Shown: positions 40,994 through 60,558 of the stretch, in pieces
Layout: each line of letters begins with the position of its first letter
Position numbering within the stretch: the first letter of the stretch is position 1
DNA from: Gemmatimonadaceae bacterium
Lineage (GTDB): Bacteria; Gemmatimonadota; Gemmatimonadetes; Gemmatimonadales; Gemmatimonadaceae
Direction of reading: 5' to 3'
Assembly: GCA_035533015.1 (NCBI GenBank)
Contig: DATLUQ010000015.1
Location: 1 to 64,000 of the forward strand
DNA: 64,000 nucleotides
Notes under the pieces: generated by a model
What the model saw: only the letters and a program-made list of their open reading frames with translations
Told to the model about the DNA's origin: nothing
The model's database searches: none
Position numbers and translations under genes: made by a program

Positions 40994-41839
40994 TTACGGC
41001 TCCCGTCCCTCCTCCACCTGCCGCAGGACTTCGGCGCACTTCTTTCCCCATGGATTGAACTTGTTCTGGGCGAATCCTTCGCGCCATGCCTGCAGGGCCT
41101 CGTCACGCCGGCCGTTGAACCAGTACGCGCGCCCCAATTCGTAATATGCCTCGATGAGGTTGGGGCCCAGCGCAATCGCCTTCTGGAAGAAGGTCTGCGC
41201 ATCCTCGAACATGTCCCGTTCGAGATACACGAGTCCGAGGTAAAAGTGCGCGTAGAGCGTCGCCTTCTTGTCGTTGTCCAGACGAATGGCCTTCGACAGG
41301 TGCTCTATGGCCTCCCCGAAGATCCCCTTCTTGAGGCAGATGTAGCCGACGTTGATGCGGGCCAGGGCATTCACCGGCTCGCGGATGAGCACCTTCTGGA
41401 ACATCAGCAGCGCGTCGTCGTATTTCTCCTGCAGCATCTGCGCCCAGCCGAGCAACCCCTCGGACTGGGGATCGTTGGGCGACAGCGCGATCGCCCTGTG
41501 CAACGCGACCTCGGCGCCCTCATAATCGCCCAGCGATAGCCGGCTCCACCCCTTCTCGATGAACGTCGACGCGCCGAGATGGTCGGCGTGCACCGCCGGC
41601 CGCGCTGCGTCGAACTCGGGAGCCAGCGACTGGACGCCGAGCGATTTCCACTTGTCGACCAGTCTCTTGACGTTGTCCTTGAGTTGGGTGAGATCGGCCA
41701 CCTCCTGCTCCAGCTGCCTGAACAACGCCACGATCTCGGCTTTCAACGCCTCGCGTTCGTGGTTCGCGTTCGGCGCGTCGAGCCGCGTCTCCAGCGCGGC
41801 GTACTGCGCGCGGCGCACGATGACCGGCGAATCAGGCAT
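40994..41839 (-). CDS. Cytoplasmic TPR protein with N-terminal coiled coil
   Basis: The product has 281 residues with no signal peptide. The N-terminal helices (about 10-75, with ALKAEIVALFRQLEQEVADL) form a coiled coil. TPR units follow from about residue 90: WSRLSLGDYEGAEVALHRAI, WAQMLQEKYDDALLMFQKVL, VGYICLKKGIFGEAIEHLSK, FYLGLVYLERDMFEDAQTFF and LGRAYWFNGRRDEALQAWRE. Its start lies inside the end of cheW (eight-base overlap), so it is produced with the chemosensory genes and is likely a scaffold for that system. No catalytic residues are apparent. Confidence 0.8.
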   Translation of the reverse strand: MPDSPVIVRRAQYAALETRLDAPNANHEREALKAEIVALFRQLEQEVADLTQLKDNVKRLVDKWKSLGVQSLAPEFDAARPAVHADHLGASTFIEKGWSRLSLGDYEGAEVALHRAIALSPNDPQSEGLLGWAQMLQEKYDDALLMFQKVLIREPVNALARINVGYICLKKGIFGEAIEHLSKAIRLDNDKKATLYAHFYLGLVYLERDMFEDAQTFFQKAIALGPNLIEAYYELGRAYWFNGRRDEALQAWREGFAQNKFNPWGKKCAEVLRQVEEGREP

Positions 41840-42314
41840 GCCGGAGTGCCTCTTCGGTCACACGCTCCAGCGTCAGCCGCTCGTCTGAGGAGAGGAGCCG
41901 CTCCACGTCGAGGAATATCAGCAGGTGGTCGCGCAGCCGCACGATACCGCGCAGATACTCCCCGGCCAGCCCGCGAAAGAGGGCGGGCGGTGGCGACAGC
42001 TGCGCCTCATCGAAACTCGCCACTTCGAGCACGGCATCGACCACCACGCCCACCCACTCGCCGCCGGACTTGAGCACCAGGATGCGCGTCTCCGGCGTTG
42101 CCGCGACCGCCGGGAGTTGGAACCGTCGCCGCAGACTCACCACCGGCAGCACGCGGCCCTGATACTCCACCACGCCGTCGATCCATTCGGGTACGTTGGG
42201 CACCGCGGTGGGTGCCTGGAAGCGCAGCACGCGCTCCACTGAAAAGATATCGGCGGCGAAGTAGTCGGTGCCCAGACGGAACGAGACGAGCTTGGCGGTG
42301 CGGGGCTTGGTCAT
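41832..42314 (-). CDS. cheW: CheW-type chemosensory coupling protein
   Basis: The product has 160 residues, a single CheW domain (about 7-145): KLVSFRLGTDYFAADIFSVE at the start, VPNVPEWIDGVVEYQGRVLP in the receptor/kinase interface region and VGVVVDAVLEV in the second half. It would link CheA to receptors or other signalling proteins. Four-base overlap with the second cheW upstream and eight-base overlap with the TPR gene downstream indicate coupling. The window has three CheW proteins but no receptor gene. Confidence 0.93.
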   Translation of the reverse strand: MTKPRTAKLVSFRLGTDYFAADIFSVERVLRFQAPTAVPNVPEWIDGVVEYQGRVLPVVSLRRRFQLPAVAATPETRILVLKSGGEWVGVVVDAVLEVASFDEAQLSPPPALFRGLAGEYLRGIVRLRDHLLIFLDVERLLSSDERLTLERVTEEALRHA

Positions 42315-42958
42315 GCGGTCTCCAGGGCGGGATCGGTGCGGCAGGCTGCCACGAGGGCCTCGGGGTCGAGCACGCCGATCAGATCGGCGTCGCGACGTGC
42401 CACCCCGACCAGCACGCCGTCGCCGAAGTCCATGGGCGCGCGGAGCAACTCCGCCGGCGAAATGGTCATGACGTCGTCAACATCGTCCACGGCCAGCGCC
42501 ACACGGCCTCGCGCCGTGACGAAGATGAGCGCAGCCGCCTGGGAGTCGGCGGTCACCCCGAGCAGCGCCGAGGGCGCGTACAGCGGCACCAGCTCCCCGC
42601 GCAGCGAGACGACGCCAAGCATCGTGGCGCTCATCTCCGGAATGGGTTGCACCTGGTCGAGGTCGATCGCCTCTTCCACCGCATCCAGGGGAAGCGCGAA
42701 CAGCTCGTGTCCCACTCGAAACACCAGATATCCCTCGTCGGCCGCCTCGACGACGGTCTCGACCACCGCTCGCGCCGGGGCCGCCAGATCGGTGTCGGGG
42801 ATCGCCGGTTCGGCGTCGGGGATCGCCGGTTCGACCGGCAACTCGGGGAGTGGGGCGCCGGCCGCCCACTCGACCACCGGTGCGGAGGCGGGGGTGGGGG
42901 AGGCTGCCGGAGTCCGGTTCAGCAGGTCGCGATAGGCGATCTTGAGTGGCTTCTTCAT
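42311..42958 (-). CDS. CheW-domain protein with N-terminal Pro/Glu-rich extension
   Basis: The product has 215 residues. The first 70 residues are a disordered Pro/Ala/Glu segment that includes two copies of a seven-residue unit (EPAIPDA, EPAIPDT) encoded by a 21 bp direct repeat. The CheW domain spans about 73-205: GYLVFRVGHELFALPLDAVE, MLGVVSLRGELVPLY and VALAVDDVDDVMTISP. The interface glycine (VVSLRGELVPL) is retained. It may tether the array or MglA-type machinery through its extension. The start overlaps the stop of the ATPase gene by four bases. Confidence 0.88.
   Translation of the reverse strand: MKKPLKIAYRDLLNRTPAASPTPASAPVVEWAAGAPLPELPVEPAIPDAEPAIPDTDLAAPARAVVETVVEAADEGYLVFRVGHELFALPLDAVEEAIDLDQVQPIPEMSATMLGVVSLRGELVPLYAPSALLGVTADSQAAALIFVTARGRVALAVDDVDDVMTISPAELLRAPMDFGDGVLVGVARRDADLIGVLDPEALVAACRTDPALETA
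42794..42835. repeat. Two tandem 21 bp repeats in a cheW linker
   Basis: Two 21 bp units (42794-42814 and 42815-42835) share a 19 bp identical stretch and encode two copies of a seven-residue Pro-rich unit in the CheW extension. The length is in frame, so copy number changes would alter linker length without a frameshift. Confidence 0.8.
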
Positions 42959-43752
42959 TCGCGGTCGTCTGCCACGTCGTGTACCAGCGCCCCGTCCACG
43001 CGCGCCAGTCCCCGCATCGCGCCCACAAACAGCGCCTGCACGGCCAGGTTATTCACCAGGCGCGGCACGCCGCCGCTACGCACGGCGAGCGCGGTCATGG
43101 CCTGCTCCGTGAAGATTTCATGGGTCGCTCCCGCGACGCGCAAACGATGGAGCACATACTCCCTCACGTCGCCGGCATCGAGCGGATCGAGATGGAAGCG
43201 CAGGCTCACGCGCTGGTCTATCTGCGGACGCTTCACGATGCGGTCGCGCAACTCGGGTTGGCCGAGCAACACGACGTGCAGGTGCTTGTCGGTGCGGTCC
43301 TCGAAGTTGGTGAGCAGTCGCAGTTCCTCGAGGAGGCTGGGGCTGGCGAGCTGTGCTTCGTCCACGATGATCACCGGCCGCCGCCCGGCGGCGTGCTGCT
43401 CCGCCAGCCGCCGCCGCAGCAGGTCGACGAGCGCCGGTTTGCTCCGCCTCGCCTGCGGCAGTTCCGCCGCGGCCGCGACGAACTGCAGCAACTGCGCGCC
43501 GGTGAGCCGCGGATAGGGGATGATCCAGGGTTCGAACGGGGTGCCGGCCAGCCGCTGGCGCAGCGCCTCGACGAGCATCGTCTTCCCGCAGCCGATCTCG
43601 CCGGTGACCAGTGAGAGGCCCCCGCGCAGATCGGTGACATCGTAGAGGAGCCGGGCGAATCCCTCGTCGAACACGGGCGAGTGGTACACGAACTCCGGGT
43701 CGGGGGTGTTCGCGAACGGCTTGGCCCGCAGCCCCCAGTGTTCGTCGATCAT
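42955..43752 (-). CDS. ExeA/GspA-like AAA ATPase in the chemosensory array
   Basis: The product has 265 residues and starts at MIDEHWGLRAKPFANTPDP, the hallmark opening of ExeA/GspA-type AAA proteins. Walker A is GEIGCGKT (51-58), Walker B is PVIIVDEAQ (about 130), and the sensor region is LLTNFEDRTDKHLHVVLLGQ. The C-terminal helical part (GGVPRLVNNLAVQALFVGAM) is the usual lid. ExeA in Aeromonas has a peptidoglycan-binding domain that is missing here. Members of this family move secretins or transposon/prophage complexes; in this location it may assemble polar or envelope machinery. ATGA overlap with cheB and four-base overlap with the next cheW. Confidence 0.82.
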   Translation of the reverse strand: MIDEHWGLRAKPFANTPDPEFVYHSPVFDEGFARLLYDVTDLRGGLSLVTGEIGCGKTMLVEALRQRLAGTPFEPWIIPYPRLTGAQLLQFVAAAAELPQARRSKPALVDLLRRRLAEQHAAGRRPVIIVDEAQLASPSLLEELRLLTNFEDRTDKHLHVVLLGQPELRDRIVKRPQIDQRVSLRFHLDPLDAGDVREYVLHRLRVAGATHEIFTEQAMTALAVRSGGVPRLVNNLAVQALFVGAMRGLARVDGALVHDVADDRE

Positions 43753-44813
43753 ACTACTGTACTCATGGTCGCCAGACACTCCACGATCGCCGATGCCACG
43801 CCGGCCAGCGGCGTGACCCGGTCGGCGCCGGCCAACTGCAGCGCCGCCTGCGGCATGCCGTAGATGGTCGACGTCTCGCGGTCCTGCACCACGCCCCGTC
43901 CACCGGCTTCGCGAATAGCCCGCAACCCGTTGGCCCCGTCGCGCCCCATACCGGTGAGCACCACGCCCACGGCCTGCGCGCCGAACACGCGGGCCACAGA
44001 GATGAACAGCGGATCGGCCGACGGCCGCACGCCCCACAGCGGCGGCGCGTCGTCGAGCACGATCGTCGGCTCGGGGCCGTCGGTCACACGCATGTGGACG
44101 CCGCCCGGCGCGACGTACACGTGCCCCCCCTGCACGACCTGTCCCCGCTCCGCCTCGTGCACCGGCAGCGGCCCCATCGCGTCCAGGCGCTGGGCCAGGC
44201 TCTTCGTGAACCCCGCCGGCATGTGCTGCACCACGAACACCGCCGCATCGAGCGTGCGCGGAAGCGCGGGAAGGACTTCGGTGAGGGCCCGCGGTCCGCC
44301 GGTGGACGCGGCGATCGCGACGGCGCGCGCGGGGGCATGCGGCCTTCGCGGGGCTGCGCGGTGTGCGGGCTCCCGAGGCACGACCGCCGCCTGGAGCGCG
44401 CGCACGTTGGCTTGGCGAGCGGCCTGGAGCGCGGCGGTCAGACGCTCGCCGATCACCGGCAGGTCAATGCTGATCGCCCCCGACGGCTTGCGCACGAAGT
44501 CCACGGCGCCGAGTTCGAGCGCACGCAACGTGGCATCGCGCCCGTCCACCGTGTCGGCCGCGCTGAGCATCACGACTGGACGTGGCGCCTCGCGCATGAT
44601 GACGCCCAATGCCTGCAACCCGTCCAGCTCCGGCATCTCGATATCGAGCGTCACGATATCGGGGTCCAGCGCGTGCACGCGGGCGATCGCTTCCGTGCCG
44701 TTGCGCGCGGTGCCGATTACGGTGAATTCCCCCGACCCGGTGATCAGGTCGGAGATCACGCGCCGCATCAACGCGCTGTCGTCCACGACGAGCACGGTAG
44801 GCCTAGAGGACAC
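43749..44813 (-). CDS. cheB: Chemoreceptor methylesterase/deamidase CheB
   Basis: The product has 354 residues from a GTG that overlaps the end of cheD by 11 bases. The N-terminal receiver domain has VVDDSALMRR and phospho-acceptor Asp57 (TLDIEMPELDG), with FVRKPSG as the conserved Lys. The methylesterase domain has the catalytic Ser in IAASTGGPRAL, the His in VVQHMPAGFT and the Asp in GMGRDGANGL. It removes methyl groups from receptor glutamates when phosphorylated by CheA, opposing CheR. The upstream extension of the open frame overlaps cheD and is not used. Confidence 0.96.
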   Translation of the reverse strand: MSSRPTVLVVDDSALMRRVISDLITGSGEFTVIGTARNGTEAIARVHALDPDIVTLDIEMPELDGLQALGVIMREAPRPVVMLSAADTVDGRDATLRALELGAVDFVRKPSGAISIDLPVIGERLTAALQAARQANVRALQAAVVPREPAHRAAPRRPHAPARAVAIAASTGGPRALTEVLPALPRTLDAAVFVVQHMPAGFTKSLAQRLDAMGPLPVHEAERGQVVQGGHVYVAPGGVHMRVTDGPEPTIVLDDAPPLWGVRPSADPLFISVARVFGAQAVGVVLTGMGRDGANGLRAIREAGGRGVVQDRETSTIYGMPQAALQLAGADRVTPLAGVASAIVECLATMSTVV

Positions 44814-45282
44814 GGGTGCCCCGCACCAGCGATCGGACCTCCATGCGGCCGTCGGCGAGCGAGAGATAAACGCTGCGCCCGTGGTCGGCCCCCACATCCT
44901 CGCCTACCAGCGGGATGCCCGCGATGGCCAGTGTCTCACGGGCCGCCTCGACGTTGCGCGCCCCGATCGTGACCGTGCCCTTGGGGAGCAGCGACGCGAA
45001 CATGCTGGCGCCGCCGGCGATCCGCGCCTTGAGCCGGCCGCGCTCGGCGCCCAGCGCCGCCATCTGCCCCAACAGCACGGGGAGCGCAGTGCCGGGATAC
45101 CGCGCCGGATTATCGTTCGCGCGCCGCGCGTCCGGATCGGGCAGCAACACGTGCGCAAGGCCGCCCACCTTGGACTCGGCGTCATATAGCACGATCGCGA
45201 CGCACGATCCGAGCCCCATCGTGGATAGCGTGCCTTCGGCGGCCGCTGCGAGCTCGGCGATGCCGACGCGGCGGTCGGTCAC
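44803..45282 (-). CDS. cheD: Chemoreceptor glutamine deamidase CheD
   Basis: The product has 159 residues with the catalytic pair in place: Cys in TMGLGSCVAIVLYD (about residue 27) and His in GGLAHVLLPDP (about 44), with GGASMF further on. It deamidates receptor glutamines and binds CheC, stimulating CheC's CheY-P phosphatase activity. A cheC gene lies at 55.6 kb in the same array, so the CheC/CheD pair is complete. It starts with a GTG that overlaps the cheR stop (GTGA). Confidence 0.94.
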   Translation of the reverse strand: MTDRRVGIAELAAAAEGTLSTMGLGSCVAIVLYDAESKVGGLAHVLLPDPDARRANDNPARYPGTALPVLLGQMAALGAERGRLKARIAGGASMFASLLPKGTVTIGARNVEAARETLAIAGIPLVGEDVGADHGRSVYLSLADGRMEVRSLVRGTRVL

Positions 45283-46103
45283 GCCGGGCGCCGGAAGATG
45301 CGCTCGCGTGCGTTGACCGGCTGGAAGAGGTGCCGGGCGTCGCCGAACAGGGTTTCGACCTTGCCGAGTATGAGGAACCCTCCGGGACTGAGCGCCGCGT
45401 AGAAGGCCTCGAACAGGCGTTCCTGCGACGCCCGGTCAAAGTAGATGATCGCATTGCGGCAGACGATCAAGTCGTTGACCGGCCGCACGGCTGGTTCGCG
45501 CAGCATGTCGTGCTCGCGGAAACGCACGAGGCCGCGGATTTCCGGCCGCACGGCAAACGGCGGCGCAGCCGAAAAATATCGCGCCCGCCACTCCGGCGGG
45601 GTCTCGCTGAAATCTGTCTCGTCGAACACGCCGCGCTCGGCGTCGGCCAGACTGCGGCGGTCGATGTCGGTGCCCAGGACGTCGACGCGTCCCACGTCGT
45701 CGAGCGCTTGCTGCTCCTCCGCGTACATGTAGAACAGCGTGGCCAGCGAGTACGGCTCCTCGCCCGACGCGCAGCCTGCGCTCCACACGCGCAGGCGCGG
45801 CCGGGACGATTCCCAGAGCGCCGGCACCACCTCGCGCGCGATCGCCTCATACGCCTCCGGATTCCGGAACAGCTTGGTGACGTTGATCGTGAGCGCGTCG
45901 AGCAGCAGATCGTACTCGGCCGTGTCGTGATCGAGCAGTCCCGCGTAATCGGCGTAGCGGTGCACGCCGCGGGCCCGCATGCGCACGCCGACTCGGCGGC
46001 GGAGGCAGGTGGGTTTGTAGCTCGCGCAGCGGAAGCCTCGATCGCGCGAGATCTTGTCGAGGAGCGCCTGGAACCCGTCGTCCACGGGCTCGACGTCGTT
46101 CAT
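45279..46103 (-). CDS. cheR: Chemoreceptor methyltransferase CheR
   Basis: The product has 274 residues. An N-terminal helical domain (about 8-80) with CASYKPTCLRRRVGVRMRA recognises receptor helices. The SAM-binding domain has VWSAGCASGEEPYSLATL, VLGTDIDRRSLADAERGVF, NDLIVCRNAIIYFD and GGFLILGKVETL. It methylates receptor glutamates with SAM. No C-terminal pentapeptide-binding extension or TPR is attached, though the gene directly upstream encodes a PATAN-TPR protein. Four-base overlaps on both sides. Confidence 0.96.
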   Translation of the reverse strand: MNDVEPVDDGFQALLDKISRDRGFRCASYKPTCLRRRVGVRMRARGVHRYADYAGLLDHDTAEYDLLLDALTINVTKLFRNPEAYEAIAREVVPALWESSRPRLRVWSAGCASGEEPYSLATLFYMYAEEQQALDDVGRVDVLGTDIDRRSLADAERGVFDETDFSETPPEWRARYFSAAPPFAVRPEIRGLVRFREHDMLREPAVRPVNDLIVCRNAIIYFDRASQERLFEAFYAALSPGGFLILGKVETLFGDARHLFQPVNARERIFRRPA

Positions 46104-47722
46104 CCCGGACTCTGCCGCACGGCTTCGAGGTTCGTGCGGACGATCGCGTTGGTCGGATCGAGGGCCAAGGCGCGCTCCCAGAGTTTGACCGCCTCGTCCT
46201 TGCGGTGTTGGCGGAAGTGGATGTTCCCGAGCTTGAGGTAGACGTCGTCGCCCAACTCGGGATCGACTTTGACCGCGCGCTGGTAGGCGGCGAGAGCATC
46301 GTCGAACCGGCTGGCACGGTAGGCAACGTCACCCAGGTTCTTGTGGATCTGGGGGACCGACGGATCTTCGGCCAGCGCGCGGTCGAGCGCCGCGGCGGCA
46401 GCCTCGGCATTGTTCCGGCGCTCCAGCACCACCGCGAGGTTGTTGTGGAGGATGGCGCTGTGGGAATGCGCCCCCACCGCCTCGTCGAGAATCGATTGGG
46501 CGCGCGCGAGGTCGCCGAGCAGCGCCGCCGCGAGCGCCGCGTGGTGATACCAGGCCGACGTGGGCGATCGCGCAGCCCAGAGGGGACGCGCGGCCCGCAG
46601 CGCCACGTCCGCCCCCGGCACGTCGCCCATCTGCAGCGTGACGATGCCGATCGACGTCTGGATCACCGGATTGATGCCGCCGCTGCGCTTGCTCGCTTCG
46701 TGCAGCGCGCGCTGCGCTTCGGCAAAGCGGCCCAGCCGCTCCAGGGCGTACCCCATGTTGTGGAACACGGCTGCCGCGGCGCCGGGACGTGCTGCGGCTT
46801 CCTCATAGACCGCCAGTGCGTCGGCCCACCGCTCCTGGCGCAGCGCCACGAGGCCGAGGAAGAACCGGGCCGCCAGATCGTCGACACGCAGGTCGAGGAC
46901 GCGGCGGAATTCGCGGATCGCCTCGTCGAGCATGCCGGTCTTGTAGAAGGCGACCCCGAGGTTGTAGTGCTCCTGCACGCGCGCTTCGGACACCGCCGGG
47001 TCCGTCGTCTTGGAGGTGCCGATGCGGTGGAGGAACCCCGCGATGGCGAGCCCGTACAGGAGCTTGCCAACGTCGAACTCGCCCATCCCCGACGCATCGA
47101 TGATCTGCTGTACGTCCCGCCGGCCGTCCACCAACTCGACTAGGCCCCGCTGCTCCATGGTCAACTCGAGGTCGCTTTTGGCCAAGCGGACGCGGTCGAT
47201 CTCGAACACGATGTCGAACGTCGGGATCTTCTTCTCGACGAGGGTCCATTCGTCCACGCGCCGAGCACCCTCGAGCAGCAGCGATTCGGGATTGATCGAG
47301 ACGAGGAATTCCTGGCCCTCTGGCTGGACGTCGGCCTCGAAGTTGAACGAGCCTTGGTTCCACGTGAACAGGAAGTAGACCGCCTCCTCGATCTGCTCGC
47401 GGATATGCTGGCGGAGGGCGTCGCGCGACAGGAAGCCCATATCCATGAGCAACTCGCCGATGCGGCGGTCGCGCTGCCGCTCCTGGGCATCGATCGCCGA
47501 CCGCAACTGGTCGCCGGTAATCACGCCGTTCTTCACGAGCATGTCGCCCAGGCGGTCGCGGCGGTTGACGATCGAGGCGTACGAGATGCGACCCTTGTCG
47601 AAGTAGATGTAACCGAAGTTCGTGCGGTAGTTGACGCTCAGGCAGCCGGTCTTCCTGCCCATCGCCAGGAGCTGGAGCACGTCGGGGAGGCTGGCCTCCT
47701 TCAAGCTGCCTTTGATGGCCAT
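46100..47722 (-). CDS. PATAN (DUF4388)-TPR protein, copy A
   Basis: The product has 540 residues from MAIKGSLKEASLPDVLQLLA, the opening of the DUF4388/PATAN domain (about 1-110; FGYIYFDKGRISYASI). A second PATAN-like or GspE N-terminal-like helical region (about 75-150, RIGELLMDMGFLSRDALRQH), then a winged-helix-like segment (about 200-245). From about 250 to the end are some eight TPR units (YNLGVAFYKTGMLDEAIREF, ALAVYEEAAARPGAAAAVFH, ALDRALAEDPSVPQIHKNLG). PATAN domains occur in cyanobacterial PatA and in myxobacterial polarity and gliding proteins; the molecular role is protein interaction. Paralogue of the product of 51742-52884. One base separates it from the DnaA-like gene upstream. Confidence 0.85.
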   Translation of the reverse strand: MAIKGSLKEASLPDVLQLLAMGRKTGCLSVNYRTNFGYIYFDKGRISYASIVNRRDRLGDMLVKNGVITGDQLRSAIDAQERQRDRRIGELLMDMGFLSRDALRQHIREQIEEAVYFLFTWNQGSFNFEADVQPEGQEFLVSINPESLLLEGARRVDEWTLVEKKIPTFDIVFEIDRVRLAKSDLELTMEQRGLVELVDGRRDVQQIIDASGMGEFDVGKLLYGLAIAGFLHRIGTSKTTDPAVSEARVQEHYNLGVAFYKTGMLDEAIREFRRVLDLRVDDLAARFFLGLVALRQERWADALAVYEEAAARPGAAAAVFHNMGYALERLGRFAEAQRALHEASKRSGGINPVIQTSIGIVTLQMGDVPGADVALRAARPLWAARSPTSAWYHHAALAAALLGDLARAQSILDEAVGAHSHSAILHNNLAVVLERRNNAEAAAAALDRALAEDPSVPQIHKNLGDVAYRASRFDDALAAYQRAVKVDPELGDDVYLKLGNIHFRQHRKDEAVKLWERALALDPTNAIVRTNLEAVRQSPG

Positions 47723-47723
47723 G

Positions 47724-49445
47724 TCAGCGCAGCTCCTCGATGGCCCGCGACGGCACATCGCGCCATTCCCAGACGACCTTCTCGTGGTCCAGGAAGAACA
47801 CATCGGCGATGCCACTCACGGCGGGCATCGCACGGACCGGCGTGGGCATGATCAACGGACCGGGTTCCGGACCGTCGAACTCGCGCCGCGCCATCTCCAC
47901 GGTGACGGCCGTGCTCACCGCGTCGGCGGCTGCCGTCAACCGCTGCACGGTCTCGATAATGTCGGACACGCTGCCCACCGGGCGTGAGGCGAGATAGCGC
48001 GCCAGCGGGTCGAGCCGACCGGCCGGCACGCCGTCCAGAAAGCGGCGGTACAGTTGCTCCGTGAGGGCCGCGTCCGGCGGCGCCAACTCCACCACGAGCC
48101 CGGTCTCGAACGCCGAGCGGATCCGGTCGTCGAAGCCCTGCAGGTCCCTGGGTGCGCGCTCGCTGGTCATCACCACCTGCTTCCCCGCATTGAGCAGATC
48201 GTTGATCAGGTGGAAGAGTTCGTCCTGCGTACGCTCCTTGCCGGCTACGGCGTGCAAGTCATCCACGAGCAGTGCGTCGATACGACGGTAGCGCTGCCGC
48301 CAGACGTCGGCCGTACCATCGCGCAGCGCGCCCAGGAACTCGTCGGCCCAGGCTTGCGCCCCCACGCACGCGACCGTCGCGGTCCGTCCGCTCGCTTTGG
48401 CCAGCTCGTTGCCGAGCGCGTTGAGCAGATGCGTCTTGCCCGTGCCCGGCGGCCCGATGAGTAGCAGCGGGTTGTATCGGCGCCCAGGCTCGGCGGCCAC
48501 GGCGTCGGCCGCGTGCACGGCCCGCTGGTTGGACGCGCCCACGGCGAATCCATTGCGCGAGAACTCCACCGATGGACCGGGCAGCTCTGCCGCCCCGCTC
48601 TGCGCGTGCTTGGCCAAGGCCTCGGCCTCGCGCAGCCGCTCGGGATCGCGGAACGGATCGTGGCCGGCCAGCGCCGGGTCGGCCGTCACCGCTTCGGCCT
48701 CGAGCTCCTTGAGCCGGCGCACCGTGGCGCCGAACCCGCGTAGCACCGCCTCATAATTGGCCGGCGGCTCGGCCTGGTCCATGAGACGCTCGAGCGCCGT
48801 CGTGCGGTACCCTGCGGCATTCCAGCTCGACACCGCCTCGGCGACGCGCACCTTCCACGATTCCACGTGGTCGGCCACGGCGCTCGCGATGTCGCTCACA
48901 AAACTCTGGAAGTCGAGCGACACGGCGGATGACGACGTCGGACCACCCGGCGGACTGATTTCCACGCTGACGCCGTGCATCAGTTGTTTCGCCAAGGCAC
49001 TGTCCATCCCCTCCAGGCGGTCGAGCGGCCCGTTGCTCGTCACCACGACCTGCCGGTCCGTCTGTTCGCGTACCGCGATCAGATGCGCCAGGGCGCGCTC
49101 TGCGTCAACGCGGCCCGCCAACCGGTGGACGTCATCGATCAGGAGCACGTCGGCACGCACCAGCCGACGCTCGAGGGCCTCCGTGGCACCGACATCGGAC
49201 GCGATCTTCCACTGCGTGGCGAACTCGTCGGCCGTCAGGTACTCCACCACGGCGGCAGGGTCCGCCACCCCGTTCCCGATGGCCAGCAGCAGGTGGGACT
49301 TGCCGACCCCGGGGCCGCCGTGGATGAGGAGCGGATTGTGAGTGACGCCGGGGGCGCCGGCCACGGCGCGCGCCGCGGCGACCGCCCCGTCATTGGCCGG
49401 CCCCACCACGTAGTTCTCGAACCGCATCCGCGCATCTACCGCCAC
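47724..49445 (-). CDS. Tandem DnaA-like AAA+ ATPase without DNA-binding domain
   Basis: The product has 573 residues with two DnaA domain III-type modules. Module 1 (about 9-170): FENYVVGPAND opening, Walker A GGPGVGKS (43-50), Walker B LLIDD (101-105), sensor-1-like VVVTSNGP (133-140). Module 2 (about 300-520): FAVGASNQRAVHAA, Walker A GPPGTGKT (331-338), Walker B LLVDD (392-396), sensor 1 VVMTSERAP, and the arginine-finger stretch DDRIRSAFETGLVVEL (439-454). In module 1 the equivalent stretch (MDSALAKQLMHGVSVEI) has lost the arginines. DnaA's helix-turn-helix domain IV is absent. A short, aromatic C-terminal peptide (FFLDHEKVVWEW) closes it. Located four bases after mglA's stop; likely a signalling or assembly ATPase, not the replication initiator. 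Confidence 0.82.
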   Translation of the reverse strand: MAVDARMRFENYVVGPANDGAVAAARAVAGAPGVTHNPLLIHGGPGVGKSHLLLAIGNGVADPAAVVEYLTADEFATQWKIASDVGATEALERRLVRADVLLIDDVHRLAGRVDAERALAHLIAVREQTDRQVVVTSNGPLDRLEGMDSALAKQLMHGVSVEISPPGGPTSSSAVSLDFQSFVSDIASAVADHVESWKVRVAEAVSSWNAAGYRTTALERLMDQAEPPANYEAVLRGFGATVRRLKELEAEAVTADPALAGHDPFRDPERLREAEALAKHAQSGAAELPGPSVEFSRNGFAVGASNQRAVHAADAVAAEPGRRYNPLLLIGPPGTGKTHLLNALGNELAKASGRTATVACVGAQAWADEFLGALRDGTADVWRQRYRRIDALLVDDLHAVAGKERTQDELFHLINDLLNAGKQVVMTSERAPRDLQGFDDRIRSAFETGLVVELAPPDAALTEQLYRRFLDGVPAGRLDPLARYLASRPVGSVSDIIETVQRLTAAADAVSTAVTVEMARREFDGPEPGPLIMPTPVRAMPAVSGIADVFFLDHEKVVWEWRDVPSRAIEELR

Positions 49446-49448
49446 ACG

Positions 49449-50054
49449 CTACCTCGCGTTGCCCGACGACGCACTCAGCCGTTTGAGTACGATCTCGGAA
49501 ATGCCCCGGAGCGTCTCGAACACTCCGAGTCCGTGGAGCGCGTCGGCCGGGAAATCCGGCACCCCGCGAAAGTTGATCGCTTCGGAGAGTTCATCCGGCG
49601 CGACGATCAGGTCGCGCGGCAAGTCCTGCTTGTTGTACTGGATGACGAGCGGAACGCCCCGGGCGTCCACTCCCTGTTCGGCAAGGTTGGCGTGCAGGTC
49701 CTGGAAGCTCTCGATGTCCTCGTCCAGTTGGCGCCGCTGGCTGTCGGCCACGAATACCACGCCGTCCGCCCCCTGCAGTACGAGCTTGCGGGTGGACTGA
49801 TAGTAGACCTGGCCCGGCACGGTGTAGAGTTGGAACTTGGTCCGGAAGCCGGAGATCGTCCCGAGGTCCAACGGCAGGAAATCAAAGAAGAGCGTACGGT
49901 CGGTCTGGGTGGCCAGCGACACCATCGCCCCCTTTCGATCGTCGGGAACCTGTCCGTAGATGTAGTGCAAGTTGGTCGTCTTTCCGGACCGGCCCGGTCC
50001 GTAGTAGACGATTTTGCAGGTGATCTCGCGGGTGGCGTAGTTGACGAGGGACAC
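49449..50054 (-). CDS. mglA: MglA-type small GTPase (polarity/gliding switch)
   Basis: The product has 201 residues, the Ras-like MglA family. G1 is YYGPGRSGKTTNLHY (Lys25), switch I lies around MVSLATQTDRTLFFDFLPLD, G3 is LYTVPGQVYYQSTRKLVL, where the prokaryotic TVPGQ replaces the DTAGQ of Ras, and G4 is QYNKQDLP. In Myxococcus MglA-GTP marks the leading pole and drives gliding and type IV pili; MglB, a roadblock protein, is its GAP. Here three roadblock genes lie directly upstream. It starts with GTG and is 23 nt from the nearest roadblock gene. Confidence 0.95.
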   Translation of the reverse strand: MSLVNYATREITCKIVYYGPGRSGKTTNLHYIYGQVPDDRKGAMVSLATQTDRTLFFDFLPLDLGTISGFRTKFQLYTVPGQVYYQSTRKLVLQGADGVVFVADSQRRQLDEDIESFQDLHANLAEQGVDARGVPLVIQYNKQDLPRDLIVAPDELSEAINFRGVPDFPADALHGLGVFETLRGISEIVLKRLSASSGNAR

Positions 50055-50077: not shown

Positions 50078-50551
50078 TCAGGCCCGGCCGAACAACGCTG
50101 CCAGATTGCGGTTCAGGTCTCGCTCGAAATTCTCGGCCAATACTGGGGTGGATTCGGGCTCGCTTCGGGGCTCGGCGGCCGCCAGGCGGGCCGCGAACTC
50201 GTCAAAATACAGCCTGACGAGCCCGATCGAACTTTCCCTGTCGAACGCGCTCAAGAAAATGTACGTACCGCGGGGCGTCCTCGCTTCGGCCAGGAAGATC
50301 TGCCGGTCCTGGCCGGCGTGGTGCAGTCCGCTGAACGGACGTCCACCGAGCATTCGTCCCAGTTCGGCCCCGGAGGCGTGGATGGCTGCCGCCAGGGCGC
50401 ATGCCGACGCGACGTCCAGCGACCGGGTGAATCCGTGCTCCGCGAGGACCTGGCCGCTGGGCAGCAGGAGCAGGGCGATCGTCACGCGAGCGTCCTCCAC
50501 GAATTGCTGCAGTGGAGCCTGGAGCCACGATTCGACCGAGCGCGTGATCAT
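50078..50551 (-). CDS. Roadblock/LC7-like protein 1 (candidate MglA partner)
   Basis: The product has 157 residues from MITRSVESWLQAPLQQFVED. The fold reads as roadblock/LC7: helix, then ARVTIALLLLPSGQVLAEHG (paired strands), a helix (ACALAAAIHASGAELGRML), and strands QIFLAEARTPRGTYIFLSAF. A longer C-terminal tail (about 118-157) is helical and charged. Roadblock dimers act as GAPs or anchors for MglA. The gene lies just before mglA and overlaps the second roadblock gene by four bases (ATGA). The larger open frame upstream of the ATG is out of the real reading. Confidence 0.78.
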   Translation of the reverse strand: MITRSVESWLQAPLQQFVEDARVTIALLLLPSGQVLAEHGFTRSLDVASACALAAAIHASGAELGRMLGGRPFSGLHHAGQDRQIFLAEARTPRGTYIFLSAFDRESSIGLVRLYFDEFAARLAAAEPRSEPESTPVLAENFERDLNRNLAALFGRA

Positions 50552-50895
50552 GCCAGCGCCCGGACAGCTTTGAGCATCTCGACCCGCACGAGCCCCACAT
50601 TCGCGGCCGGCGCGGCGACCACGACCAACACCATATCCTCGCGCCCCGCGGCGCAGACGCGCCCCGATTCGGCTTCCAGTTCCATGAAGGTCACGCCGCC
50701 CATCCCCGCCGCGCCCGCCGACAGGCGTGCCTTGCGATGGAGCGACGCCGAGAGCGCCGCCACGCGGTCGCCGTCCTGGCCGAATTGCAGCACCGAGTCG
50801 ATGATCGTGCCGTCGTGCTCGTCCACGAGCATGGTGGCCGACACGCCGCGCAGCCGCATGAGCGACTGCAGCATCGTGGTAAACGGGGAGTTCAT
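50548..50895 (-). CDS. Roadblock/LC7-like protein 2 (candidate MglB)
   Basis: The product has 115 residues, the size of a minimal roadblock protein: MNSPFTTMLQSLMRLRGVSATMLVDEHD, then helix (VAALSASLHRKARLSAGA) and strands (GVTFMELEAESGRVCAAG, MVLVVVAAPAANVGLVRVEM). It is the closest match in size to MglB, the GAP of MglA. It is sandwiched by four-base overlaps between roadblock 1 and the TPR-roadblock gene, so the three are co-translated with mglA. Confidence 0.78.
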   Translation of the reverse strand: MNSPFTTMLQSLMRLRGVSATMLVDEHDGTIIDSVLQFGQDGDRVAALSASLHRKARLSAGAAGMGGVTFMELEAESGRVCAAGREDMVLVVVAAPAANVGLVRVEMLKAVRALA

Positions 50896-51755
50896 GCCGG
50901 ATCCTCCGCCGCGTCGGAGGCACCGGGCGCCCATCCACTGCGCGCGAGCCACTCGCGTGCGCGCCACGCGCACCGGTCGAGCAGACGCCGCACGAGCCCG
51001 AGCGGCGTGGCCCGCGAGACGGCGAGCACCAGCAGCCCGTCGCCTGCCGCCGGGGTCATCGCCACCACCGCGATCTCGGTTTCGAACACGATCGATTTCC
51101 ATTCGCCGAGACCGAGATGGCGCGTAGCGCGATCGGCCTCGTCGGACACGCCGCTCAGCTGCGCGCCGACCTCGGCCGCCACGTCGCGCCCCTCGGCCGT
51201 GGGGTAGGCGCCGGCCAGCACGAACCCCGATGCATCGAGCAGCAGCGCCGTCTGCTCGCCGCCCTCGAGCACCGAGGCGAACACGAACAGCGGATCGTCG
51301 GGATCGTACCACGCGGCAGCGGACTCCACGCCGGCCGCGCCCGGAGTGGCCGAATTGCGCCGCACGGTGTCGAGGGCGGCGCTGATGCCGGCGTCGGGAG
51401 CGTCGCCCAGCGCGGCGCGGCGCAGGTAGTCCTCGGCCTCCTCGAAGCGCCCCTGCTGGAAGCACACGAACGCCATTCCCTTTAACGAACCAGTATGGTC
51501 GGGGGACAGGCGCAGGGCCATGTCCCACTCGTCGAACGCGCGCTCGAATTCACCGGCATCCACGTACACCCGGGCCAGCAGATCGTGGGCATCGGGGTGG
51601 TGCGGATGCCGCTGCAGCCCGAGCACGGCCACGCGCCGCGCCGCGTCGAGGTGCCCCTGTCGCCGCAAGGCCTCGGCCAACGGGAGAAACGCCAGGCTGG
51701 CCGGGTCCCGGGCCAGTTCATCGCTCCAGCGGCGGATCGCATCAGGCATCGGCAT
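50892..51755 (-). CDS. TPR-roadblock fusion protein
   Basis: The product has 287 residues. The N-terminal part (about 1-125) has TPR units: LPLAEALRRQGHLDAARRVA, LARVYVDAGEFERAFDEWDM and FVCFQQGRFEEAEDYLRRAA. The C-terminal part (about 155-265) is roadblock-like: LFVFASVLEGGEQTALLLDA, a helix EVGAQLSGVSDEADRATR and strands WKSIVFETEIAVVAMTPA. A fusion of TPR and roadblock could bridge MglA to the scaffold proteins encoded next to it. Two ATGs six bases apart can serve as start; both overlap the preceding PATAN gene. Confidence 0.75.
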   Translation of the reverse strand: MPMPDAIRRWSDELARDPASLAFLPLAEALRRQGHLDAARRVAVLGLQRHPHHPDAHDLLARVYVDAGEFERAFDEWDMALRLSPDHTGSLKGMAFVCFQQGRFEEAEDYLRRAALGDAPDAGISAALDTVRRNSATPGAAGVESAAAWYDPDDPLFVFASVLEGGEQTALLLDASGFVLAGAYPTAEGRDVAAEVGAQLSGVSDEADRATRHLGLGEWKSIVFETEIAVVAMTPAAGDGLLVLAVSRATPLGLVRRLLDRCAWRAREWLARSGWAPGASDAAEDPA

Positions 51756-52884
51756 CGGCTTCCAGCAGGTTGGTGAGTCGGATGAGCGAGTCGAGCGACG
51801 CCTGGACGCGCGCCGCGTCGAGCCCAGCCGGCGACAGGCGCAGGAAATGCTCCCAGCTTGCCCGCGCCGTGGCGAACTCCCCCACCCGCGCCGCCGCGAA
51901 CCCCAACTCGAGGTGTACGCGCGGGGTGAGCGGGTCGGCGTGCACGGCGCGTCGCAGCTCCTCCAGCGCCTCGGGATACCGGCGCAGCTTCACGAGGGCG
52001 CGGGCGACGAGCAGCCGGGCTTCCGTGCCGAACGCGTCAACGGCGCCCCGCGCCGATTCCAGCGCCGCGGCGAAGTCCCCGTACGCCATCGCGCCCCGCG
52101 CCCGCTCGAGCAGCGCCTCGTCTCCCACCACCGCGGGGCGCGGCTCCCGACCACGGCGCGTGGCCGCCTTGAGGTCCACGACCCCCGTGGTGACGAGCCC
52201 GTAGGCCACCTTGGCCACCTCGAATTCGCTGCGGCCCAGCGATCCGGCGATCTCGCGCAGGTCGCGCGTGCCGTCGATCATCGTGAGCACTTCCCACTCG
52301 TGCGGCAGGAGGTCGAGCTGCGTCTCGTGATCGCCAGTCACCGCGGCGAGTTGGGGCACCACGGCCAGATTCGGCACCTTGTCGACGATACGCGACCACT
52401 CGTCGATGCGGCGCGCGCCCTCCATGAGCAGCGACTCGGTGGACACGCTGACCCGGATACTGGAGGGGAGCGCATCGGCGGAGAGTTCCTCGAACGAGAA
52501 GAACCCCTCGCGCCACGACATCAGTTCGAATACGACCGTTTCCACCTGGAGGCGCACCTGGCGTTCCAACTCGCGCTGCGACACGGCGCCGCCAGCCACC
52601 AGTGCACTGGCCAGCGCGCTGGGCGCGGCGTTGGCCCCCGCCCGGCTACGGGCTTCAACCAGATCCGACTCGGTGATCTTGTCCGACGCCAGCAGCAACT
52701 GCGCCAGCGATAGCGGTCTGCTGCGGATGCTCGCTTGAATGATGCGACCGTTCACGAAATGCACCACGCCCTCGTCGTCTCGCAACTCGGAGGTCACGCG
52801 CAGCATCCCCGTCTTGCGGCTCAGATCGAGCAGCTGGAAGACATCGTGGATGCCGAGTTCGCGGAGAGGACCTTCGATCGTCAT
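51742..52884 (-). CDS. PATAN (DUF4388)-TPR protein, copy B
   Basis: The product has 380 residues. MTIEGPLRELGIHDVFQLLD with GMLRVTSELRDDEGVVHFVN and GRIIQASIRSRP is a PATAN/DUF4388 start, parallel to copy A at 46.1 kb. The helical middle (about 60-130) and winged-helix-like part (LLPHEWEVLTMIDGTRDLRE) also align in order. Only about three TPR units remain (AMAYGDFAAALESARGAV, ALVKLRRYPEALEELRRAVH, FAAARVGEFATARASWEHFL), compared with about eight in copy A. Two bases separate it from the large TPR gene upstream. Confidence 0.83.
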   Translation of the reverse strand: MTIEGPLRELGIHDVFQLLDLSRKTGMLRVTSELRDDEGVVHFVNGRIIQASIRSRPLSLAQLLLASDKITESDLVEARSRAGANAAPSALASALVAGGAVSQRELERQVRLQVETVVFELMSWREGFFSFEELSADALPSSIRVSVSTESLLMEGARRIDEWSRIVDKVPNLAVVPQLAAVTGDHETQLDLLPHEWEVLTMIDGTRDLREIAGSLGRSEFEVAKVAYGLVTTGVVDLKAATRRGREPRPAVVGDEALLERARGAMAYGDFAAALESARGAVDAFGTEARLLVARALVKLRRYPEALEELRRAVHADPLTPRVHLELGFAAARVGEFATARASWEHFLRLSPAGLDAARVQASLDSLIRLTNLLEADADA

Positions 52885-52886
52885 GG

Positions 52887-55586
52887 TCAGGCGGTCTTGC
52901 GGGTGGCGAAGATTCGTTGGAGGTCGGTGGCCGAGCGGATTTCGCGCCGCGCCCGTCGCGCATACGCGCCGGACGGTGCCAGCGTCAGGACCCGTGTCCA
53001 TCGCTCGATCGCCTCCCGGAAGCAACGCCGCTCGGCGAGCAGCGCGCCCTGATGAAACAGCGCGCCGACGTGATCCGGATCGAAGCGAAGGACGCGCGTG
53101 AACGCCTTGACCGCGTCGTCCTTGCGATTGAGCACGAGCAGGGTCTCGCCCAGGGAGATCAGGGCATCGAAGTGGTACGGATCGCGCTCGAGCAGGTCGA
53201 TGAGCAGGGGCATCGCCTCGTCGGCCCGTCCCGCCATGCGGCGCAGGGTGGCCAGTTCGAGCGACGCCTCGGCGTACGTGGGCACGGCGTCGAGCGCCGC
53301 GAGGAGTTCGGCTTCGGCCTCGCGCAGTTGCCGCTTCTCGATGAACAACCTGGCCAGTTCGTAGCGCACGCCTGCGAACTCGGGATCGAGCTCCAGTGCG
53401 TGGCGGTAGGCCATGACGGCCCCCTCGCGGTCGCCCAGCCGGCGGGCGATGTCGCCCATCTGTTGGTGGACGTCGGCGCGCATGGGCGCGACGCGGCGCG
53501 CGGTATCGAGCGTGGCCAGCGCCGCCGCCGGGTCGCCCGATGCTGCCCGCACCGCCGCCGCCAGCATGAGCACGTCGATGTCCTCGGAAGCGCGGAGCAC
53601 GAGGGTTTCGACGATCGGCCGCGCCTCGGCCGGCTGGCCCAGCTTGAGCAGCGCCTGCGCCTCCCCCCGCATCGCCCCCAGGTCGTCGGGGACCTGGCGG
53701 CGGGCCTCGCGGTAACGTTCGAGCGCCTCACCATACAGCCCTTGGCGCGCGAACGTCTCGCCCAGCAGCACGTTGCCGACGGTGCGGTCGGCGCCGTGCG
53801 CGAGGGCGCGCCGCGCTTCCATCTGCGCCCGGTCGAAGAACCCCTTCGTGAGGTAGTCCGCCGCCATCCCGTACGGGTCCGTGTCGACGCGCGCCGACGG
53901 GGCGGGCGTCGGCGCGAGTTGCGTGAACACGCCGTCGAGCAGGCCGGGATCGAAGTCGAACTCCTCGATCGCCGCATCGATCCGCTGCTCGCCTCCCAGG
54001 TCGGGCTGGATCGAGAGATCCGGGTCCTCGTACTGGAGGTCGATCGCCAGATCGAACTTCTGTGCCACGTAGTAGGGCTCGATCTCCAACGCCAGCTTGG
54101 TCTCGCGCAGGGCCCCTTCGAAATCGCCGAGATTCGAGAGGGTGAAGCTCAGGTTGTAGTGCGCTTCGGCGTATTCGGGCCGCGCCTGCACGGCACGCGC
54201 GAAAGCGTTGCGCGCATCCTCGAATCGCTGCAGGTCGGTGAGCACGAGCCCCACGCCGTTCCAGGCCACGGGGTGTTCGGGTTCGGCCGACAGAACCTGC
54301 CGATAGGCTTCCAGGGCCTGCTGCAGGCGGCGGGCACGGTAGAGGAGCAACGCCAGGTTGAGGCGCGCCTTGGCCAGTCCGCCCTGCGCGTCGAGGGCGG
54401 CACGGAACTGGGCCACCGCGTCGTCGCCGTCGCCGGCGTGGTAGAGCGCCACACCGAGGTTGTTGTGCGCCAGCGCGTATCCCTCGTCCAGGTCGATGGC
54501 ACGCCGGTAGCTCCGTTCGGCGTCGGCCACCCGCCCCGCCTGGTGCAGGGCCACCCCCCGTTCGTTCCACAGCTTGGGGCTCTCGGGATTGCGGGCGATG
54601 AGTTGGTCGTACAGGGCGAGGGCGGTGGCCGCTTCGCGCGTCACCAGGTGCACTTCGGCCATCGCCTGGCACACGAGGTCCTCATCCTCGCCGCGGTCGA
54701 GCGCCAGTTGGTACTCGCGCAGCGCCTCGGCGTAATATCCCTTCTGGCGGAAGGCGAGCCCGAGATTGTAGTGCGCGAGCTGACCTTCGCGCGCCACCTC
54801 CATGCGGTGCGCCCGGCGCGCGCCGCGCGCCTCCGTCATCTGCTCGTAGCGGAGCGCCTTGTTCTCGTCGATGGACAGGTTGGCCTGGGCGCGCGACAGC
54901 GTCGGGTTGAGCTTGATGGCGCGCTTGGTGATGGCGCGCGCCTCGTCCTGCCGCCCCATGTCGCCGAGCACGAACCCCATGAGGTACAGGGCGTCGTGGT
55001 TCTCGGGATTCAGTTCGATGGCCCGGGTGAGCGACGCGAGGGCATCATCGTTGAGCCCGCGGTTGTAGGCGATCTCACCCAGGTAGAAATGGACGAGCGA
55101 ACTGGAGGGATCGAGCGCACGCGCCTTCTCCAACCACCGCTGCGCCTCCTCCGGACGCTCCAGCGCCCGCTCCGAAAGCCCGAGTTGGAGGATCGCGCCG
55201 ACGTCGTTCGGCGCGTAGCGGAGGAGCGCCGTGAACTCGTCCACCGCGTGCTGGTGTTCGCCGAGCAGGGCATACGTGCGCGCCAGCTCCCACCGCGCTT
55301 CGCCATCGGTCGGGTTCGCGCGCACCCGGTCCCGGAGTTCGGGCACGCGATCATCGTAGTAGCCGGTGTTGAAGTACGCGATCTCGAGGTTCCGCTGGGC
55401 CACCTGCATGCGCGGGTCGATCTCGAGGGCGCGCATGAACGCCTGGACCGCCTCGGCGTATAAGTTTTTGTTGAAGTACAACACCCCCAGGTTGTTGTGC
55501 GCGCCGGCGTCCGACGGGTCGATCCGCCGCGCAAACGACCTCAGAATCTCGTGGTCGCGCTCCGAACCCAGGCTCGTGGCCGCCAT
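52887..55586 (-). CDS. Large TPR protein (899 residues)
   Basis: Almost the full chain is TPR repeats. The N-terminal half (about 25-235) starts AHNNLGVLYFNKNLYAEAVQ and includes WELARTYALLGEHQHAVDEF; repeats resume (about 270-490; NNLGVALYHAGDGDDAVAQF). An acidic interruption follows (about 505-560, containing DLQYEDPDLSIQPDLGGEQR) before the last block (about 575-880), ending GALLAERRCFREAIERWTRV. No signal peptide or membrane segment is visible, so it is cytoplasmic. It is the largest protein in the array and a probable scaffold for the chemosensory/MglA parts. One base after cheC's stop and two bases before the PATAN gene. No domain beyond TPR was recognised. Confidence 0.88.
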   Translation of the reverse strand: MAATSLGSERDHEILRSFARRIDPSDAGAHNNLGVLYFNKNLYAEAVQAFMRALEIDPRMQVAQRNLEIAYFNTGYYDDRVPELRDRVRANPTDGEARWELARTYALLGEHQHAVDEFTALLRYAPNDVGAILQLGLSERALERPEEAQRWLEKARALDPSSSLVHFYLGEIAYNRGLNDDALASLTRAIELNPENHDALYLMGFVLGDMGRQDEARAITKRAIKLNPTLSRAQANLSIDENKALRYEQMTEARGARRAHRMEVAREGQLAHYNLGLAFRQKGYYAEALREYQLALDRGEDEDLVCQAMAEVHLVTREAATALALYDQLIARNPESPKLWNERGVALHQAGRVADAERSYRRAIDLDEGYALAHNNLGVALYHAGDGDDAVAQFRAALDAQGGLAKARLNLALLLYRARRLQQALEAYRQVLSAEPEHPVAWNGVGLVLTDLQRFEDARNAFARAVQARPEYAEAHYNLSFTLSNLGDFEGALRETKLALEIEPYYVAQKFDLAIDLQYEDPDLSIQPDLGGEQRIDAAIEEFDFDPGLLDGVFTQLAPTPAPSARVDTDPYGMAADYLTKGFFDRAQMEARRALAHGADRTVGNVLLGETFARQGLYGEALERYREARRQVPDDLGAMRGEAQALLKLGQPAEARPIVETLVLRASEDIDVLMLAAAVRAASGDPAAALATLDTARRVAPMRADVHQQMGDIARRLGDREGAVMAYRHALELDPEFAGVRYELARLFIEKRQLREAEAELLAALDAVPTYAEASLELATLRRMAGRADEAMPLLIDLLERDPYHFDALISLGETLLVLNRKDDAVKAFTRVLRFDPDHVGALFHQGALLAERRCFREAIERWTRVLTLAPSGAYARRARREIRSATDLQRIFATRKTA

Positions 55587-55587: not shown

Positions 55588-56208
55588 TCATGTCACGCGA
55601 ATGGCGCGGAGGATCACCTGCAGCGACGCCGGATCGGGCAGCAACAGGAAGAACCCCCGCAGTCGTTGGTCGACGTCCTTGAGCACGAAGTCGCTCTCCA
55701 CGCAGAACACGTAGTCGTGGTCGGTGCCGAACTGCAGATACGCCGTCGTCAGCACCGCCGCCGACATGTCGATGGCCAATGCCGGCGGCGACGGTAGCAG
55801 CAACATGCCCATGAACTCGCTCAGCGCATTCATGTAGGCGCTGCTCAGGATGTTGCCCGCCTCCTTGATCGCTGACTGCTCCAGTTCGCCCAACTCCGCG
55901 GTCGATCCGGCGGGCCGCCGCAGCATCATCTCGGCCAGCTGCACGGCCGCCGACTTCGGGAACACGAGCAGCGTGCGCCCCGACAGATCCCCGAGGATGT
56001 GCAGCAGCACCGCCGCCACTGGCTCCTCCGGGTCGCCCACCAACGGCGCCACGTCCTCGAGCCGCTGGATGTTGATCCGCGGCACGCTGATCATGATCGT
56101 GCCGCCCACGATCTGTGATAGTGCGGTGGCGGCATGTCCGGCGCCGATGTTGGCCACCTCGCGCAGCGCGTCGAGCTGCAACGCCTTGAGGGACGAAAGA
56201 TCTTCCAT
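55588..56208 (-). CDS. cheC: CheC-type CheY-P phosphatase
   Basis: The product has 206 residues with the duplicated CheC motif: LREVANIGAGHAATALSQI (about 15-33) and IKEAGNILSSAYMNALSEF (about 113-131). Both carry the E-x-x-N pair that CheC/CheX/FliY use to dephosphorylate CheY-P, so both sites look intact. It is likely to work with CheD (44.8 kb). Between cheA and the large TPR gene; ten bases after the cheA stop. Confidence 0.93.
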   Translation of the reverse strand: MEDLSSLKALQLDALREVANIGAGHAATALSQIVGGTIMISVPRINIQRLEDVAPLVGDPEEPVAAVLLHILGDLSGRTLLVFPKSAAVQLAEMMLRRPAGSTAELGELEQSAIKEAGNILSSAYMNALSEFMGMLLLPSPPALAIDMSAAVLTTAYLQFGTDHDYVFCVESDFVLKDVDQRLRGFFLLLPDPASLQVILRAIRVT

Positions 56209-56218
56209 GACTGCTCCG

Positions 56219-58129: not shown

Positions 58130-58137
58130 CGCGCCGA

Positions 58138-58500
58138 TTATCCCAGCACGCGCTGGACAGCTTCGAGCACGCGGCTTGGCTGGAAGGGCTTCACGACAAA
58201 GTCCTTGGCCCCTGCCTGGATCGCTTCCACCACGAGGGCTTGCTGCCCCATGGCGCTGCACATGAGGATCTTCGCCTGCGGATCGAACTTGGCGATTTCC
58301 CGCACCGCGTCGATGCCCCCCATGTCCGGCATCACGATGTCCATCGTGACCAGATCCGGACGCAGCTGCTTGTACTTCTCCACGGCCTGAATGCCGGTCT
58401 CCGCCTCACCCACGATCTCGAATCCGGCCGACTGGAGGATGTCCCCTACCATCGTCCGCATGAAGATCGCGTCGTCACAAATCAACACCGTGTGGCTCAT
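58138..58500 (-). CDS. cheY: Single-domain response regulator CheY
   Basis: The product has 120 residues, one receiver domain. Acidic pair Asp9-Asp10, phospho-acceptor Asp54 (TMDIVMPDMGG), the conserved Ser82 position (CSAMGQ) and Lys104 (VVKPF) are all in place. It receives phosphate from CheA and would act on the downstream motility or polarity target. GGGAG lies nine bases before the ATG. A 147 nt gap upstream (58501-58647) is the largest break in this array. Confidence 0.95.
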   Translation of the reverse strand: MSHTVLICDDAIFMRTMVGDILQSAGFEIVGEAETGIQAVEKYKQLRPDLVTMDIVMPDMGGIDAVREIAKFDPQAKILMCSAMGQQALVVEAIQAGAKDFVVKPFQPSRVLEAVQRVLG

Positions 58501-60548: not shown

Positions 60549-60558
60549 CGAGGGCCGG

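Follow-up and report, generated by a model that had tools for sequence, protein, structure and literature searches.

The window analysed here, a stretch of 64,000 nucleotides at the start of contig DATLUQ010000015.1, comes from a Gemmatimonadaceae bacterium whose MAG-like assembly comprises 66 contigs with a total of 3.03 Mb and is 95% complete. On its reverse strand, at 47724-49445, lies a gene with a GTG start that encodes a product of 573 amino acids with two DnaA-type AAA+ modules. This open reading frame is real: homologues occur in about 50 of 60 relatives, and comparison with the congener G001 yields a dN/dS of 0.28. The gene forms part of a run of signalling genes in the order CheW, CheY, CheA, CheC, large TPR, PATAN-TPR, TPR-Roadblock, Roadblock, Roadblock, MglA, followed by the tandem DnaA-type gene and then PATAN-TPR, CheR, CheD, CheB, ExeA-like ATPase, CheW, CheW and TPR. 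The features are as follows.

40994-43700, minus strand: ExeA-like AAA_22 ATPase (by domain match), two CheW-like genes and a TPR gene (named from sequence)
43749-46103, minus strand: CheR, CheD and CheB genes (named from sequence; order conserved in relatives)
46100-47722, minus strand: PATAN (DUF4388)-TPR protein, directly downstream of the tandem gene, 1 base apart (conserved neighbour)
47724-49445, minus strand: tandem DnaA-type AAA+ protein, 573 aa, whole gene (open reading frame and homologues)
47727-47795, minus strand: candidate docking peptide at the C-terminus, aa 551-573, FFLDHEKVVWEWRDVPSRAIEELR region, preceded by a disordered linker (conservation in alignments)
47877-48569, minus strand: module 2, complete DnaA domain III core and lid, aa 293-523
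48597-48917, minus strand: mid domain, aa 177-283, all-helical, no Pfam match
48948-49424, minus strand: module 1, aa 8-166, with the core of DnaA domain IIIA; Walker A and B intact, Gln in place of the arginine finger, lid (domain IIIB) deleted
49449-50054, minus strand: MglA-type small GTPase, directly upstream of the tandem gene
50078-51755, minus strand: three Roadblock/LC7 proteins, one with an N-terminal TPR
51742-55586, minus strand: second PATAN (DUF4388)-TPR protein and a large TPR protein (899 aa)
55588-58500, minus strand: CheC/CheX-like, CheA and CheY-like genes (CheA by domain match, the others named from sequence)

The gap between mglA, which ends at 49449, and the start of the tandem gene at 49445 measures 3 bases, one fewer than the initial annotation had given. 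We infer from the tight gene spacing that the run is co-transcribed as an operon. The ExeA-like AAA_22 ATPase, at 42955-43700 between cheB and cheW, was detected in part of the related operons only.

Both modules resemble DnaA domain III

Searches with Pfam Bac_DnaA (PF00308) returned two matches in the protein, at about aa 9-167 and 296-453 (E 1.2e-81), and the score of the whole protein, 273 bits, lies far above the cut-off of 23 for the DnaA AAA+ domain III. The P-loops read GGPGVGKSH in module 1 and GPPGTGKTH in module 2, and the Walker B motifs LLIDD and LLVDD, as first described. Of the solved sequences, DnaA from B. subtilis, T. maritima and A. aeolicus come nearest. Both the window protein (pLDDT 84.7) and a complete congener, L092 (652 aa, pLDDT 84.4), were modelled with AlphaFold, and both models had B. 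subtilis DnaA as their best structural match, with TM-scores by target of 0.91 and 0.93 to domain III in 8bv3, and in the structure comparison of the models no other AAA+ clade came near the likeness to DnaA over a single module.

The domain IV helix-turn-helix (PF08299) found no match in the gene, and elsewhere in the genome it gave just one hit of 13 bits (E 0.31). Domain I is absent from the N-terminus, where module 1 begins at about aa 8 and leaves no room for it. Thus, the description of two fused DnaA-like ATPase modules that lack a DNA-binding helix-turn-helix is borne out by the searches, and the predicted folds place the modules with DnaA domain III and not with a different AAA+ clade. 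The DnaA equivalog model TIGR00362 scored 323.1, under its cut-off of 343.9, with two stretches counted, and we rejected the identity of a canonical DnaA because domain IV is missing. Helicase loaders and IstB were set aside as well, their matches being weaker.

A further candidate, Hda, was rejected as an identity, since the Hda model TIGR03420 scored 129.5, under its cut-off of 194.8, and since the aligned N-termini, inspected by eye, lead straight into module 1 with no clamp-binding stretch. The same observations bear on a regulator of the Hda kind, whose arginine fingers would act on canonical ATP-DnaA and so couple sensory signalling to the timing of replication. Hda is itself a DnaA-like AAA+ protein that lacks domain IV, and it requires its finger R153 to act on DnaA (PMC3836487). 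However, the present gene stays in a signalling operon, its copy in the window has no finger, and short forms exist without any AAA+ part, so that we consider such a role very unlikely.

Architecture of the protein and of its family

In the alignment, the family layout consists of DnaA module 1 with its lid, a linker, a helical mid domain, module 2 with its lid, a disordered linker and a C-terminal peptide. The initial annotation had recognized the two modules and had missed both the mid domain (aa 177-283, about 107 residues) and the conserved tail (aa 551-573). Both are present in the window protein; the mid-domain profile matches it with an E-value of 1.3e-42, the window sequence being itself one row of that profile, and the Pfam search with this domain found no match. 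The tail has the consensus EKxxWxWPxxxxRxxEE and follows a linker with pLDDT below 50 in the predicted structures; no further copies of the motif were found elsewhere in the window.

The window protein departs from the full form in module 1, where the model shows the last core strand (159-163) followed by a disordered linker and then by the mid domain, the lid being deleted. Among three congeners, only G001 has the same loss of the module 1 lid and finger, and G002 and G003 have the full form. Module 2 (aa 293-523) keeps Walker A and B and most of the initiator-specific-motif residues, and carries an Arg to Ala replacement at aa 445 and an Arg to Ser replacement in sensor II at aa 494. The relative orientation of the modules is uncertain in the models (pTM 0.46-0.47).

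Conservation of the gene and of its neighbourhood

The mid domain was found in 176 of the 298 genomes sampled from the phylum Gemmatimonadota, representing 86 of 119 genera. The gene order MglA, tandem DnaA-type gene, PATAN-TPR, CheR, CheD, CheB is strongly conserved across families, and, with few exceptions, the loci examined have the gene between MglA and PATAN-TPR, surrounded by Che genes. This conserved operon slot supports the earlier assignment of the gene to an MglA/chemosensory context and not to replication, and the neighbourhood with mglA and che genes holds in relatives. MglA was not detected within about 9 kb in two loci of family f5 (L149, L150), where the PATAN gene adjoins, nor was it seen near L056 and L057; MglA therefore need not be the partner of the protein.

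In the scan of all taxa with the mid-domain alignment, the relatives that carried titles were Gemmatimonadota, and absence outside this phylum is weakly tested, as the only productive scan of this kind used one short pattern. A scan of genome contigs with a single protein (P0001) gave no confirmed match, and the mid-domain alignment served instead. A contig of 3159 bases titled Planctomycetota (L074) carries a copy of Gemmatimonadota type, whose mid domain shares 81% identity with the query; the contig has probably been assigned to the wrong bin.

Most genomes searched have two MglA paralogues, one in the operon (61-92% identity to that of the window) and a second of about 229 aa elsewhere, at about 60% identity, which in the window's own genome lies at G000:C48:6153-6608. 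In genus g38 (G040, G052, G056) the operon slot holds a diverged MglA (38-41%).

As for a separate canonical dnaA, which the initial annotation had proposed to look for, relatives carry one and the window's own assembly does not. Since yidC, the neighbour of dnaA in G001, is missing too, we rejected a biological absence; the dnaA region most probably falls in a gap of the assembly.

Arginine fingers, sensors and module integrity

The arginine finger is R264 in B. subtilis DnaA (PMC10721633) and R285 in E. coli DnaA (PMC6727663). R264 aligns with residue 445 of the window protein, an Ala within DRIRSAFETGL (SRF in the solved DnaAs), and the equivalent of R260 is kept. The finger position is thus Gln in module 1 and Ala in module 2. 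Module 2 had been credited with an intact arginine-finger stretch; the stretch is there, with the finger itself replaced. The reported lack of this stretch in module 1 stands, and the loss goes further, as the entire C-terminal lid is gone, a trait found only in G001 among the closest relatives.

In most of the family the fingers and Walker A are retained. Of 85 first modules, 72 have the finger Arg, 82 the Walker A Lys and 69 the sensor II Arg; of 75 second modules, 69 have the finger Arg, 69 the Walker A Lys and 51 the sensor II Arg. Both modules are fully intact in 41 of the 85 proteins, which is the commonest form. The window protein and that of G001 are the only two of the 85 to keep all four Walker motifs while having lost both fingers and both sensor II arginines. 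In other members the decay is confined to module 1 (L044, L083, L084, L086, L087) or to module 2 (L149, L150, L153, L057), and in L143-L148, L154 and L160 only one module is present. In L149 and L150, neither with MglA seen nearby, the second module has no P-loop and keeps the arginine-finger box.

The pairing first put forward, with module 1 as a nucleotide-binding regulator and module 2 as the hydrolase, is not upheld by these data: the window protein lacks both fingers and its module 2 lacks the sensor II Arg, 41 of 85 proteins are intact in both modules, and, because the decayed or lost module differs between lineages, a fixed division of labour was rejected.

Module 2 also bears on whether the protein could bind ssDNA or RNA through its initiator-specific motif and thereby anchor the signalling complex on the nucleoid. 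Contacts to ssDNA or to the neighbouring protomer are made in B. subtilis DnaA by I190, I193, R202, K222, E223 and E228 (PMC10721633). Module 2 keeps these residues or replaces them conservatively (R202 in 72/75, E228 in 72/75, and Ile, Val or Leu at 190 in 67/75), whereas several are changed in module 1. Several of them may, however, also act at the protomer interface, so that their conservation need not mean DNA binding. Moreover, domain IV is missing, ssDNA binding by DnaA involves finger-made oligomers and the window protein has lost the finger, and members with a single module or with none stay in the same slot. We therefore regard a nucleic-acid-bound element as improbable.

Evolution of the modules and reduced forms

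A tree of 180 modules and DnaA proteins was built from 158 alignment columns, with FastTree supports. Of 83 first modules, 82 group in a single clade (support 0.989), and the one that does not, L055, has no real module. Second modules form a separate clade (0.975), and the two clades together split from the canonical Gemmatimonadota DnaA (0.949). A. aeolicus DnaA was placed on the module side of the tree, possibly by its long branch. As the two kinds of module form clades of their own that stand jointly apart from canonical DnaA, the tree fits a single capture followed by a single duplication of a DnaA module. Single-module members group among the first modules, which fits the loss of module 2.

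Rates of change differ along the protein. In the pair formed by the window species and G001, dN reaches 0.34 in module 1 and 0.24 in the core of module 2, compared with 0.09 (0.093) in the mid domain and 0.11 in the tail. The mid domain is the most conserved part in this pair (83% identity), and the dN of the modules is 2.5-3.7 times that of the mid domain. The sister pair G002/G003 still has the fingers and the module 1 lid, and there the cores (dN 0.12 and 0.11) change less than the mid domain (0.17). Measured against the mid domain, then, loss of the fingers goes with faster change in the modules, which shows relaxed evolution; dN/dS in the window pair nevertheless stays below 1, at about 0.37 in module 1.

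Several lineages have gone further. In G017 and G033 (L055, L056) just the mid domain and tail are left. In G006, G008 and G009, genomes without a profile match, the slot that separates mglA from the PATAN gene is occupied by an open frame some 70 aa long (L183:8923-9147, L184:8694-8960 and L185:4622-4840). These frames keep the first mid-domain helix and a WP-type tail, for example GEFADFMADISQEIAQRVESL...GLIVEWPNIADRMIEEMR in G006, as read by eye from position and motif with no statistic attached, and they may be the minimal form of the family. The PATAN (DUF4388) proteins of G006 and G008 lack the helical stretch of the window's copy, along with the loss of the DnaA modules; that of G009, which also has the short form, keeps it.

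Because lineages have lost module 2, lost both modules or retain the protein of about 70 aa, the mid domain and tail emerge as the persistent core of the family. Some genomes have MglA without the AAA+ modules, which makes these dispensable in some lineages.

A decaying relic is one way to read the window protein: in its genus only the mid domain and tail would matter, with the modules as passengers on the way to a short form. The window species and G001 lack both fingers, the module 2 sensor II Arg and the module 1 lid; among the structured parts, module 1 shows the highest dN; and short forms occur in three genera of the same family. Against this, the frame is open, all four Walker motifs are preserved in the two species, and dN/dS lies below the neutral value overall as well as in module 1. 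The relic reading would account for the window copy and not for the family, in much of which both modules are intact, and we consider it unlikely.

Proposed function

The presence of two ATP-binding cores of DnaA, lacking its DNA-binding part, in an operon for sensing and polarity suggests that a replication machine has been reused as a scaffold or switch for signalling. We would read the mid domain and tail as docking parts and the DnaA modules as an element for ATP-dependent assembly, which most lineages retain and some have given up. On balance, we think it probable, with considerable reservation, that the protein is a non-replicative, DnaA-derived, ATP-binding scaffold for the MglA/Che complex, the ATPase parts of which are eroding in the window's genus. 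A DnaA-derived protein would have left replication to serve the MglA/chemosensory complex. In the most frequent family form, both domain III modules would bind ATP, and intact modules would stack head to tail through their arginine fingers, within or between molecules, so that the nucleotide state could set the oligomeric state of the scaffold. The mid domain and the C-terminal peptide would tether the protein to products of its own operon, of which the neighbouring PATAN-TPR and MglA proteins or the CheA/CheW array are the most likely partners. On the branch of the window's genus, the coupling parts of both modules have been lost while Walker A/B, the mid domain and the tail remain, and the window protein most likely serves as a scaffold that binds ATP or is nearly static.

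For the family at large, it is quite possible, although we would stop short of calling it probable, that the head-to-tail assembly of DnaA was turned into a switchable scaffold that clusters the MglA/PATAN/chemosensory complex through the helical domain and docking peptide, some lineages being pared down to the docking parts. Oligomerization, docking partners and output are inferred; what the analysis shows is the predicted fold, the architecture, the gene order across the family, the common origin of the modules, the residue losses and the relaxed evolution of the modules. The output would probably be control of type IV pili or surface motility, which is sensible given that the window's own genome encodes PilB/PilT-type ATPases and four MCPs elsewhere.

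Relation to known systems

The family shares with DnaA domain III (PF00308, TIGR00362) the core and lid fold, the DnaA-type surroundings and Walker A/B, and its typical members also box VII and the initiator-specific motif. Unlike DnaA, it has two modules per chain, a new mid domain and tail and no domains I, II or IV, and its gene lies in a signalling operon; the window protein, in addition, lacks the arginine fingers. Hda/HdaA is likewise a DnaA paralogue of the AAA+ type without domain IV, but has a single module, an N-terminal clamp-binding stretch and a role at the replisome. Tandem AAA+ ATPases such as p97/CDC48 and Rix7 also have two modules per chain and appear as whole-chain Foldseek matches, but belong to a different AAA+ clade; the rmsd of about 23-31 Å over the whole chain points to a general AAA+ likeness only. 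To our knowledge, DnaA-type AAA+ modules are known only from replication, in DnaA, Hda and helicase-loader relatives.

The operon itself resembles the MglA-Roadblock-PATAN and MglA-Frz systems of Myxococcus and others (PMC4316618), with MglA, Roadblock, PATAN (DUF4388), TPR and Che genes; PATAN adjoining some MglA genes is described there, but no DnaA-type protein is mentioned. The links described for the MglA system of M. xanthus are RomR, FrzS and AglZ. A search of openly licensed published papers found no description of the tandem DnaA-mid-tail family, in agreement with the initial annotation, which knew of no such arrangement.

A class-wide family of twin DnaA modules in a polarity/chemosensory operon would show plainly that the DnaA fold can be put to use outside replication. 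The series of members with two modules, one or none would offer natural material on which parts a signalling scaffold needs, and the family defines an unnamed domain and a docking-peptide candidate beside MglA. The window also holds, at 60048-61113, two adjacent signal-peptidase II (lspA)-like genes beside a dksA/traR-like gene and an ileS-like gene.
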